NCBI GenBank assembly: GCA_027603945.1
Contig: JADIIU010000012.1
Span: 124,001 to 188,000, forward strand
Reading direction: 5' to 3'
Length of the DNA: 64,000 nt
Origin: Terramyces sp. JEL0728
Lineage: Eukaryota > Chytridiomycota > Chytridiomycetes > Rhizophydiales > Terramycetaceae
Notes under the pieces: generated by a model
What the model saw: only the letters and a program-made list of their open reading frames with translations
Databases searched by the model: none
Told to the model about the DNA's origin: nothing
Program-made: the position numbers and the translations under genes
Part shown: in pieces, positions 59,560 through 64,000 of the stretch
Layout of the letters: every line of letters begins with the position of its first letter
Numbering within the stretch: the stretch's first letter is position 1

Positions 59560-60470
59560 ATGTTGCAAAATCATTCCCCAGGACTTGACGGTTCTGCTTT
59601 GATTACCATAACACCGACACATTACGACAAGCGGGGACTGATGGTAACCGATCCTGTCACTTTGACTATATCACTATCTAATCTATACTATTTATCATCA
59701 ACCTACCCCACGAAGCTCTCGCACTCGATATCCGAACATGGCGGGTTGGAACTGCTGGTACATAGACTAACTAAACTATCCTCTAAAAGCGATCAACGAT
59801 CAACGCTGTCATTTTCACTTGGACTAGGCACTCTTGGTAATTTGGCGGCTTGTGGAAATTCAAAAATAAGATTTCAAATGGTAAGAGCAGGTATTATTCC
59901 GTTACTGCTCCCGACACTGGAGAAAGCTTGTTCACTGCTGATTACAATCAATCACACCCCGCACTACAGCACACGAAATTGTCAACAGCAGTCAAATTGG
60001 ACAGTGCAAGACTTGGAACCGGAATCGCCTATATCTTCCGAATTCTCTTTTCAATTTCAACCATCGGATATTAACGGCGATATCAAATCCCACGATCTAT
60101 TGATGATTTCAAAGATTGTCGCATATATATCAAAGTACGATGAAACCAGGATGGTGCTCCACCATTATCCTATCTATAAATTATTAGAGCAACTGACTGT
60201 TGGTCAAGTCGTGCCGGAAATTAGGAAATGGAGTGTAACCTGTGTTAGGAACGCTTACAAGCGCAATAACCTAACAACTGCCCCGCTGATTTGCGGATAC
60301 ACATCGTGCGCGAAGCGTATGGTGAATGGATCTATTAGCTGCTGCAAATGTAAATGTGTATTCTATTGCAGGTAATCGTTTGTTAAGTCAGCAAAACTTG
60401 TCAAATAGTGGCTAGCAGATTCCATCAAAATTGGTGTAGACCTCCAAAGGAACAAACGATTAATAAATAA
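59560..60470 (+). CDS. MUB1: Mub1/SamB-like MYND zinc-finger protein
   Basis: Exons 59560-60371 and 60392-60470 with a 20-nt intron; 296 residues. Mub1 works with the Ubr2 E3 ligase to degrade Rpn4, and its Aspergillus relative SamB controls growth polarity. An armadillo-like N-terminal part starts ALITITPTHYDKRGLMVTDP and includes SLGLGTLGNLAACGNSKIRF. The C-terminal MYND finger reads CGYTSC, CCKCKC and VFYCSKTCQ with H and C ligands (FHQNWC). Splicing is needed to complete the finger. It is shorter than yeast Mub1 (about 620 residues), mainly by lacking long tails. Confidence 0.88.
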
Positions 60471-61804: not shown

Positions 61805-63679
61805 CTAATAGTCAAAATCGATATTTTCTGCTTGTTCGCGTTCTTCAATATAATCTTGGCGCTTTCGTTAACAAAGTGTACCTTTTCGCTCAGGTCTAGC
61901 CCAAATATAATGCCCCCAAGTATTATACATACGCTGCTCAACACGATGATAATGGCATTGGTAGTAGATGACGGGTTCATGTACAGTTCCAATTTCCATT
62001 CATCAGGTCCTTCCTTGGTTTCTTCATACGGCCCTATAACAATGCCGCTATTAGGAATGAGCCCTTGGTACGACCTATAATGTACATTTTCATTCCTACT
62101 AACACCTACAAACAAGTGGTCAATATAATTGTTTGTCCTCCCCAGTCCTATCACGTTATTGGCTACTTGTAGAGACATATAGGATTGCTGCGGCAGCTGA
62201 CATGATTGCGTAACTCTGGTCTTGCCATTTGTGTCGATAACAGTGTGCTTGAACGATGCGCCGGCATAGTTAACCCCGTACGGTTTGACGGTATCACAAG
62301 TAAGACACAAAGAGTTCAAGACAAGTGGTTTAAAGAACAATGCATCCTTGTATATGTTGTTGATGAATATACTTGTTTTTGTTTTATCGTCCTTCTTGTA
62401 GGATACAAACACATCAAGCGAGCCGTCGTTGTCCATGTCCATCATCGCACCGTGGATAACAGAGTTTATAGAGTAGAGTTGGTCGACCCCTGTCGTAACC
62501 AGTTTGAACGATCGTCTATTTTTTTGCATTGCTCGGGTTCCACAGGTAAAGTCGCACTCTACACTCTCTAATAACCTATTCTTAGCAAATGGTTACCTGG
62601 ATTAAACAAAAGTACCTTATATACTTGCTATACTTGTCATATTTACTATTAACGACAACCAACAAATCTGGAAACCCATCGTTATTATAGTCACCAAGCT
62701 TGATTGACTGCAGCTGATAATCTGGTATAATATTATTCAGTGGTAAACTAACATACGAACTGGAGGATTTTTGGTCAAAAGTGAATGGCGATGCAGCACA
62801 TAAATCATCCAATTGTCTACAATTCAATGCATCACCTTGGCAAATAGGTAGCTGGATATTATACAGAATATTGATGAAGCATTCGGTTTTGCAGACTGGA
62901 AATAGGATATCGATTGTGCCATCAGCATCAAAATCTCCAAATAGTATTTGTCCGGTATTGTCTGGTAGACGTGCAGAGTACTTTTTCTCAAATTCAGGTG
63001 TAGTGTAAATCTCCATTCCCAATTTACCATCACTATTACACGTCAAAAACAAATCTCTTTAGTAGGATTGTACCTGCCATACAGTCACCATCCATATCTA
63101 CAAACCCATTCGAGTGCGGATCACTAATCTTGCAAAACCCATCCAATTTTTCTTTATAAAAACTTCCATTGTAATTCCACATAACTAGCTGATCATTCTC
63201 GCTGTACAGAATGCTTGGCTTTAGTGATCTTGTCATGTCAGCAATGAATGGCTGCGGTCCACTGTACTTGAAATTCAATATATCTGTCCAGTCGGATTTA
63301 TAACTATAGACAAATACTGTATCCTGAGTTGTTAGTAATAAATCCAAATATCCGTCCTGGTTGAAATCACTCGCTATTACGTTAATCACTGCTAATTTGT
63401 TTATGAAGGAATGGAAAACGTAATTGTCGTTGGAATACAAGTGAATGGAAATTCCACTGCTGTTTTGCAGAATTAAATCAATGTTCAAGTCATTGTTGAA
63501 ATCGCCGAAACCTTTGGATTAGCAATTATTTGCCTGTAATTAACACGGGTTACCTAGGTATTAGATATTTCTACCTGCTATTAATGAAAACCGACCTGCA
63601 AATAAGCTAGTTGTTACCTGTAATAAGTAAAAAATAACCTAATAGTAAAACGCAAAGAACCAACTAGAAAATCATTCAT
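61805..63679 (-). CDS. ITFG1: FG-GAP beta-propeller membrane protein, ITFG1/TIP-like
   Basis: Model exons 63661-63679, 63074-63511, 62616-63054, 61882-62575, 61805-61861; 548 residues. The propeller shows repeated D-x-D-x-D-G loops (GDFNNDLNIDL, SDFNQDGYLDLLL, VDMDGDCMAD, GDYNNDGFPDLLVV, MDMDNDGSLDVFV), which bind calcium in related proteins. One TM helix (NAIIIVLSSVCIILGGIIFG) and a short tail (EKRQDYIEEREQ, ending NIDFDY) match human ITFG1. The gap at 62576-62615 is two adjacent introns (19 plus 21 nt). The region 63512-63660 is a run of seven intron-like units (22, 21, 22, 21, 21, 20, 22 nt). Keeping the 21-nt unit 2 as exon would give a signal-peptide-like start (MNDFLVGYFLLITG). The 5' exon structure is therefore uncertain. 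Confidence 0.85.
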
Positions 63680-63754
63680 TGCCAGATAGTGATGCAGCCC
63701 AGAAGTAACATAATTAATATTTGCCAAAACGAAATTCACTAAAAAAATCATAAA

Positions 63755-64000
63755 ATGCAGGAAGCAGATTTCACCTATTGCCTCACTTCGGAACTCTCGC
63801 TCTCGCTCAAATTCAAAATAATCGAACTTAAAGGTAATATTAGGATACCAGAATTGCAGTTGCTTGACAATGTATTTTATCAGAATTTGAAACAGAAATA
63901 TTATATTAGTTGCCAGCCGTTTTCACTGGAGAAGCCGATTTGTCTGCCTTGCTTTACTTGCGGATCTGACAATAGGATATGGAATGAGTGGTAAATGCCG
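63755..64000 (+). CDS. Unidentified protein, partial (runs off window)
   Basis: Frame from an ATG 75 bp away from the divergent ITFG1 start. The first 79 residues begin MQEADFTYCLTSELSLSLKF and include a Cys pair (CLPCFTCGSDNRIW). The frame meets TAA right after a GT (tggtaaatgccg at the window end), so this is most likely the start of an intron and the gene continues outside. No family is recognised. The alternating hydrophobic pattern (LSLKFKIIELKG) hints at beta strands, such as a C2-like domain. Confidence 0.55.

Follow-up and report, generated by a model that had tools for sequence, protein, structure and literature searches.

The window analysed here, a 64,000-nt stretch of the genome of the chytrid Terramyces sp. 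JEL0728 (assembly of 15.0 Mb in 231 contigs), carries on its minus strand an ITFG1-like gene with two arrays of directly abutting intron-like units. The predicted layout of the gene is as follows, with the scores of the seven-unit array given as percentiles of 382 reference introns.

63661..63751, minus strand: exon 1, in-frame ATG at 63751, signal-peptide-like start followed by SGLHHYLAMNDFLV (alignment of chytrid ITFG1 N-termini; gene model)
63639..63660, minus strand: array unit 1, 22 nt, GTTCTTTGCGTTTTACTATTAG (exact split; 6th percentile)
63618..63638, minus strand: array unit 2, 21 nt, GTTATTTTTTACTTATTACAG, frame open when retained (exact split; 38th percentile)
63596..63617, minus strand: array unit 3, 22 nt, GTAACAACTAGCTTATTTGCAG (exact split; 9th percentile)
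63575..63595, minus strand: array unit 4, 21 nt, GTCGGTTTTCATTAATAGCAG, frame open when retained, coding in the ab initio model (6th percentile)
63554..63574, minus strand: array unit 5, 21 nt, GTAGAAATATCTAATACCTAG (exact split; 7th percentile)
63534..63553, minus strand: array unit 6, 20 nt, GTAACCCGTGTTAATTACAG (exact split; 80th percentile)
63512..63533, minus strand: array unit 7, 22 nt, GC donor, GCAAATAATTGCTAATCCAAAG (below every reference intron, percentile 0)
63074..63511, minus strand: exon 2, with the FGDFNND motif at its start (split, homologue alignment, gene model)
63055..63073, minus strand: single intron, 19 nt, GTACAATCCTACTAAAGAG (removal gives DCMADLFLTC, matching Boothiomyces P0002 and P0004)
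62616..63054, minus strand: exon 3 (homologue alignment, gene model)
62597..62615, minus strand: tandem pair unit 1, 19 nt, GTACTTTTGTTTAATCCAG (removal with unit 2 gives KYIRLLESVEC)
62576..62596, minus strand: tandem pair unit 2, 21 nt, GTAACCATTTGCTAAGAATAG, preceded by a zero-length exon (homologues, gene model)
61882..62575, minus strand: exon 4 (gene model)
61862..61881, minus strand: single intron, 20 nt (removal gives the C-terminus EKRQDYIEEREQAENIDFDY of P0001)
61805..61861, minus strand: last coding exon and stop (gene model)

The spliced product has the FG-GAP propeller and C2_ITFG1 domain of ITFG1 (PF23122, 108.7 bits; PF13517, 74.6 bits); its best protein match is a Terramyces sp. 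JEL0728 entry (99% identity over 78% of the query), and the next matches are three Boothiomyces entries (78-87%). The public Terramyces model, P0001, starts MTRSL and lacks the N-terminus, and at the 19-nt intron it has Y in place of CMAD. Head to head with this gene, a PI3-kinase-like gene (named by eye) starts on the plus strand and has, just behind the start codon, its own array of approximately six or seven units, of ambiguous parse (63984-64000 and on, beyond the window, to approximately C12:188150).

The seven-unit array in the ITFG1-like gene

On the minus strand, the 149 nt from 63660 to 63512 divide with zero remainder into seven abutting units of 22, 21, 22, 21, 21, 20, and 22 nt, reproducing exactly the division given in a preliminary description of this DNA; its account of the unit ends, with GT at the start of six units, GC at the start of the seventh, and AG at the end of all seven, was confirmed as well. 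The units have the GT or GC donor, the branch adenosine near the 3' end, and the AG acceptor of U2-type introns, with weaker branch sites in the first units. Five of the seven score in the lowest tenth relative to the 382 reference introns, and unit 7 lies below every one of these, but so does the 19-nt intron at 63073, which is demanded by protein alignment. Comparison of the seven units with one another shows no clear similarity. When intervals of 19-23 nt of the form GT/GC...AG are chained on both strands of 264 kb (the window plus 200 kb of contig C1), the seven-unit chain is the sole chain longer than three, and the runner-up has three. In five shuffles of the 264 kb the longest chain has at most four units. 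When the window was shuffled 120 times with its dinucleotides preserved, the maximum was two units in 16 shuffles, three in 98, four in 5, and five in 1.

Among the 128 ways of keeping or dropping individual units, four preserve the reading frame and avoid a stop: those that keep no unit, unit 2 alone, unit 4 alone, or both of these. The proposal that removal of all units joins the flanking exons in frame stands, but the 19-nt first exon that went with it does not, since the frame has an ATG at 63751, a further 72 nt upstream. This ATG opens MIFLVNFVLANINYVTSGLHHYLAMNDFLV, which aligns with homologues, and the frame continues via GLHHYLAMNDFLV up to the array. By eye, exon 1 already begins with a signal-peptide-like stretch, and there is no need to keep unit 2, as had been suggested, to obtain a hydrophobic start.

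Alignment with seven more distant chytrid homologues shows no insertion before FGDF, or its counterpart, in any homologue that covers this point. Because these homologues have no extra residues there, we take the ITFG1 array to be intronic in full, and for the same reason we set aside the ab initio gene model, which retains unit 4 as coding. Boothiomyces P0002 and P0003 have extra residues exactly at the array position. Back-translation by eye suggests that V-FILLLR-LLKFNP-G of P0002 could correspond to two translated 20-nt units, that KFNPG in the same protein looks like TTTAATCCAG|G, and that GKYLKANE-G of P0003 could correspond to one translated 24-nt unit. In the second array of the gene (62615-62576, 19+21 nt), both units must go to give the KYIRLLESVEC of P0001 and P0004.

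Intron lengths and arrays across the genome

A home-made gene finder, run in a first pass on introns with a flat length prior of 15-300 nt, returned a sharp peak of intron lengths at 19-22 nt. A second run on the 264 kb, trained on the introns of the flat run and restricted to 18-25 nt, returned 455 predicted introns in 121 gene models, all 19-24 nt in length (19 nt, n = 89; 20 nt, n = 188; 21 nt, n = 123; 22 nt, n = 41; 23 nt, n = 10; 24 nt, n = 4). The donor consensus is GTAATT-like, with position +5 being G in 68 and T in 156 of 338 introns of the 264-kb sample, and a U2 snRNA gene is present at C70:14443-14635 (140 bits). As a search for longer introns, the flat run was repeated with 11 other dinucleotide pairs as control. 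In the range 18-23 nt, GT-AG gives 53 introns versus 1-11 for the other pairs; in no bin from 24 to 150 nt is there an excess of GT-AG; and in the range 151-300 nt, GT-AG gives 40 versus 15-37. The unrestricted finder also returned 36 GT-AG candidates in the range 24-160 nt. None parses into several units, and one 24-nt entry parses as a single unit; we treat these candidates as noise because other pairs equal or exceed them at 24-150 nt. A class of long introns is thus not detectable up to 150 nt, although rare long introns may occur.

Three successive AGGT motifs at a spacing of 19-23 nt occur 179 times in the genome (109+70), versus 40 times (13+27) at a spacing of 24-28 nt, and the pattern read backwards shows no spacing effect (368 versus 345). 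The backwards control outnumbers the AGGT pattern (194 and 174 versus 109 and 70); because backwards reading turns AGGT into TGGA, spacings were compared instead of raw counts. For the T-led AGGT pattern, the one leading-base form to which this spacing control was applied, the counts at the two spacings are 95 versus 6, and backwards 108 versus 84. The pattern GTAA...YAGGTAA...YAG, with 30 and 16 matches versus 15 and 18 backwards, is by itself weak evidence.

Array assembly drew on those 134 of the 179 rows whose leading base is T or C, excluding the 45 with A or G, and yielded 217 distinct units in 81 arrays. A TRAY motif near the 3' end is present in 150 of the 217 array units and 309 of the 382 single introns, as compared to 2 of 58 control units, which were drawn from 29 of the 40 rows with 24-28-nt spacing after exclusion by eye of 11 apparent near-duplicates, and 561 of 4340 shuffled units. 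A branch filter requiring TRAY in half of an array's units was passed by 63 arrays and failed by 18. Forty of the 63 have two units, 10 have three, 5 have four, 5 have five, and 3 have six, these being sizes as seen by the AGGT pattern, which misses end units (in ITFG1 it counts 4 of 7). Position +3 is A in 48 of the 63 first units and 83 of the 110 later units (131 of 173 overall), versus 331 of the 382 single introns; array units are somewhat poorer in both TRAY and +3 A than single introns. The total lengths of the 63 arrays leave remainders of 0, 1, and 2 on division by three in 21, 15, and 27 cases, a spread unlike that of coding repeats. Successive introns abut as AG|GT with no exon between them, which is the configuration of recursive splicing. 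In the modelled 264 kb there are 448 intron positions, of which 5 are runs. ITFG1 accounts for three of these runs, two of which are a single array interrupted by the retained unit 4; among the internal exons of the 121 gene models, seven have zero length (five in ITFG1) and none has 1-6 nt. Arrays thus make up a small fraction of all intron positions.

Several further observations concern the distribution of such repeats. A 21-nt AGGT repeat at C25:18171-18280, in five copies and without branch sites, is perhaps a coding repeat. A candidate two-unit array of 22+20 nt at 60350-60391 on the plus strand of the window has strong splice signals and a weak gene model. The number of arrays per Mb rises from 2.1 in contigs C1-C10 to 7.0 in C151-C231, a rough estimate for which most contig sizes were interpolated.

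Seventeen array loci (L022-L034 and L036-L039) were taken for closer analysis, of which 16 were modelled and one (L029) was aligned only. The target array lies wholly or partly within the gene model in 14 loci, and does not in L023 (C79) and L039 (C91). Reading through the array brings a stop into frame for 15 of 15 arrays in ten gene models, a count to be read with the preference of the gene finder for removing such stretches. Pfam domains were found in seven of eight spliced proteins tested, including ITFG1; a Pfam domain search of the L025 product found none. For L038, which has five units, the matches shown against solved structures span the ankyrin part and do not cover the array.

Conserved genes and duplicated units

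The gene for PSMA6 (proteasome alpha-6) has a four-unit array of 21, 20, 20, and 20 nt between GRSQ and VQRA, the last three units being identical, and with the array removed its product aligns without a gap at this point to proteasome alpha type-6 chains of known structure (353 bits). The gene for TOP2 is present in two copies on contig C27, identical at 1739 of 1762 aligned bases, with a two-unit array whose unit 2 differs in length between the copies (19 versus 20 nt), both of which have an intact frame; with the array removed, the protein is gapless across it (VNAADNK|VRDP) relative to DNA topoisomerase 2-alpha (PDB 9bq6). As we read the alignment, the modelled coding part of the two copies differs in length by this single nucleotide and nowhere else. 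Since the gain or loss of one base would disrupt coding sequence, either this unit is spliced or one of the copies is dead.

In 20 of 110 pairs of adjacent units, similarity lies above the 99.5th percentile of that between arrays, versus 0.55 pairs expected. Related neighbours occur in 13 of the 63 arrays, and ten of the 110 adjacent pairs are identical; the remaining 90 pairs show no clear similarity. In the HOOK gene on contig C128, GTAAAACAAGACTAACTCAG is present in five identical 20-nt copies. The gene model has here a seven-unit array of 148 nt after codon 7, and the protein matches HOOK_N from residue 5; by eye, positions 2181-2345 of this locus (L022) can be read as eight units, where the gene model instead keeps a 4-nt exon and one 20-nt copy. 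Upstream of HOOK, on the opposite strand (L022 1219-1340, minus; approximately C128:21718-21791), are three identical 23-nt units and more intron-like units.

In the near-identical gene copies on C37 and C56, the arrays differ by exactly one 21-nt unit, a difference that alone does not prove splicing, because 21 is a multiple of three. Duplicate loci in the assembly comprise C27:90556/117269, C37/C56, C18:70840/132614, C26:84405/130539, and C100:38509/45968; these loci, some of them within one contig, may be either segmental duplications or uncollapsed haplotypes.

Interpretation and comparison with known systems

We consider it likely that the arrays are whole micro-introns in tandem, removed unit by unit. 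According to this hypothesis, the ITFG1-like gene of a chytrid with introns of approximately 20 nt would contain seven complete U2-type micro-introns in tandem; each inner AG|GT (AG|GC for the last) would close one unit as acceptor and open the following one as donor, with zero-length exons between; and the units would leave singly, in any order. Full removal of the array is well supported by homology at the protein level, and the mature mRNA would accordingly lack it; that the units are excised one by one we infer from the splice signals and from intron length. Removal one at a time appears most likely because the spliceosome here seems limited to introns of approximately 19-24 nt. The serial gain at one place and the splicing across zero-length exons envisaged in the preliminary description gain support from the intronic status of the array by homology and from the recurrence of this architecture genome-wide; perfect tandem copies point to duplication of whole introns. 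The arrays would originate by tandem duplications that happen to copy exactly one whole intron, after which the units would drift but would have to retain donor, branch site, and acceptor. The ITFG1 array probably arose by duplication like the recent arrays, a point on which we are less certain than on splicing. Duplication of unit length would be neutral where every copy is a complete intron, and an array may therefore grow and shrink like a minisatellite with the mRNA unchanged.

Removal as a single long intron, bounded by the first GT and the last AG, with the inner motifs as unused relics of duplication, would yield the identical mRNA, and the removal of the 40-nt pair in public model P0001 would be explained equally well by a single intron; the 36 GT-AG candidates of 24-160 nt and the count of 40 versus 15-37 at 151-300 nt would also allow rare long introns. 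However, GT-AG does not rise above the other pairs at lengths of 24 to 150 nt, and inner splice signals have been kept. In 50 diverged arrays, TRAY is present in 64 of the 80 units that precede the last and in 45 of the 50 last units after the branch filter, which favours this outcome; over all 81 arrays, without the filter, 93 of the 136 units that precede the last have it; +3 A, likewise, is kept in later units as in first units. We favour splicing one by one because there is no long-intron class and because TRAY in non-last units and +3 A in later units have been kept, and we regard single-step excision as improbable. Still less probable is that some units are optional in-frame micro-exons, which would place 7 or 14 extra residues ahead of the first FG-GAP motif. 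Two 21-nt units, 2 and 4, are open in frame, as the earlier suggestion of such micro-exons would require, and unit 4 is coding in the ab initio model, but none of the more distant chytrid homologues in the alignment has residues there, and the lengths of the 63 arrays do not favour multiples of three as coding sequence would.

Chance alignment, or a coding tandem repeat mimicking introns, has next to nothing to recommend it: some AGGT repeats do lack branch sites, as in the repeat on C25 and the 18 of 81 arrays that fail the filter, but the seven-unit chain exceeds the longest chain in every shuffle, the arrays read through run into in-frame stops (with the gene-finder preference noted above), and PSMA6 and TOP2 are gapless relative to their homologues after removal. 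A further alternative concerns origin only and is compatible with splicing of units: repeated insertion at AG|GT, introner-like or by reverse splicing. The lack of detectable similarity among the ITFG1 units and in 90 of 110 adjacent pairs elsewhere is as insertion would predict, and an AG|GT remaining from one intron might offer a target to another. Related neighbours and identical pairs, however, would not be favoured by insertion from elsewhere, whereas duplication followed by drift accounts for both similar and dissimilar pairs, and we hold an insertion origin to be unlikely, though less so than the other alternatives. Returning to duplication of whole micro-introns, we lean, with some reserve, toward the broader proposal that a strict spliceosome ruler of approximately 20 nt has made introns into minisatellites, which multiply by unit-length duplication, diverge, and form arrays of seven or perhaps eight. 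A lengthened intron would then survive only as an exact number of complete introns, each unit would have to be spliced separately, and intron number at one site would vary like a repeat count between gene copies.

How introns are gained has long been an unanswered question, and few cases have been caught. Given identical copies and gene copies that differ by one unit, gain and loss could be traced here at single-unit resolution, and the arrays provide a natural test of the smallest spliceable intron and of splicing order where no exon intervenes. A gene finder built for longer introns misreads genes of this kind; the public Terramyces ITFG1 model, which lacks the N-terminus, is an example.

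In Drosophila ratchet points, a juxtaposed AG|GT serves as acceptor and then as donor and leaves no exon; recursive splicing with zero-nucleotide exons, reportedly described by Duff et al. in 2015, is said to subdivide very long Drosophila introns. The Terramyces arrays share with ratchet points an AG|GT that would be first acceptor, then donor; unlike the subdivisions of very long introns, the Terramyces units appear to be complete introns of approximately 20 nt, stacked up to seven at one site in ITFG1. Introns of approximately 15-22 nt occur in Stentor and in the Bigelowiella nucleomorph, and we know of no description of tandem arrays in either. In the literature, for which coverage of subscription journals was thin, we found no report of tandem, genome-wide arrays of whole introns.

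In human UBC and VCX3A, AGGT works as both 5' and 3' splice site in tandem repeats, and in VCX3A an extra intron copy is polymorphic and splicing lessens the harm of repeat expansion (PMC10809524). The repeat in those genes is coding, with a variable number of monomers in isoforms (PMC10809524), whereas the Terramyces units appear to be non-coding, fully removed, and present in many genes. Units of the UBC type encode protein; in Terramyces, in-frame stops are present in all 15 arrays, and full removal restores conserved PSMA6 and TOP2 protein. Stwintrons of Hypoxylaceae are two introns spliced consecutively at one site (PMC8469720), and they are nested, one intron interrupting a splice signal of another, whereas the Terramyces units are whole and side by side; none of the seven ITFG1 units has an interrupted splice signal. 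With respect to introners, the similarity between introns that we detect is between neighbouring units. Finally, PMC4974935 describes tandem duplication of a segment with AGGT that creates splice sites and leaves the peptide unchanged, and cites a 24-bp repeat in fission yeasts that is spliced across several copies. In the case described there, an exonic segment has turned into an intron; in Terramyces, existing whole introns would multiply.
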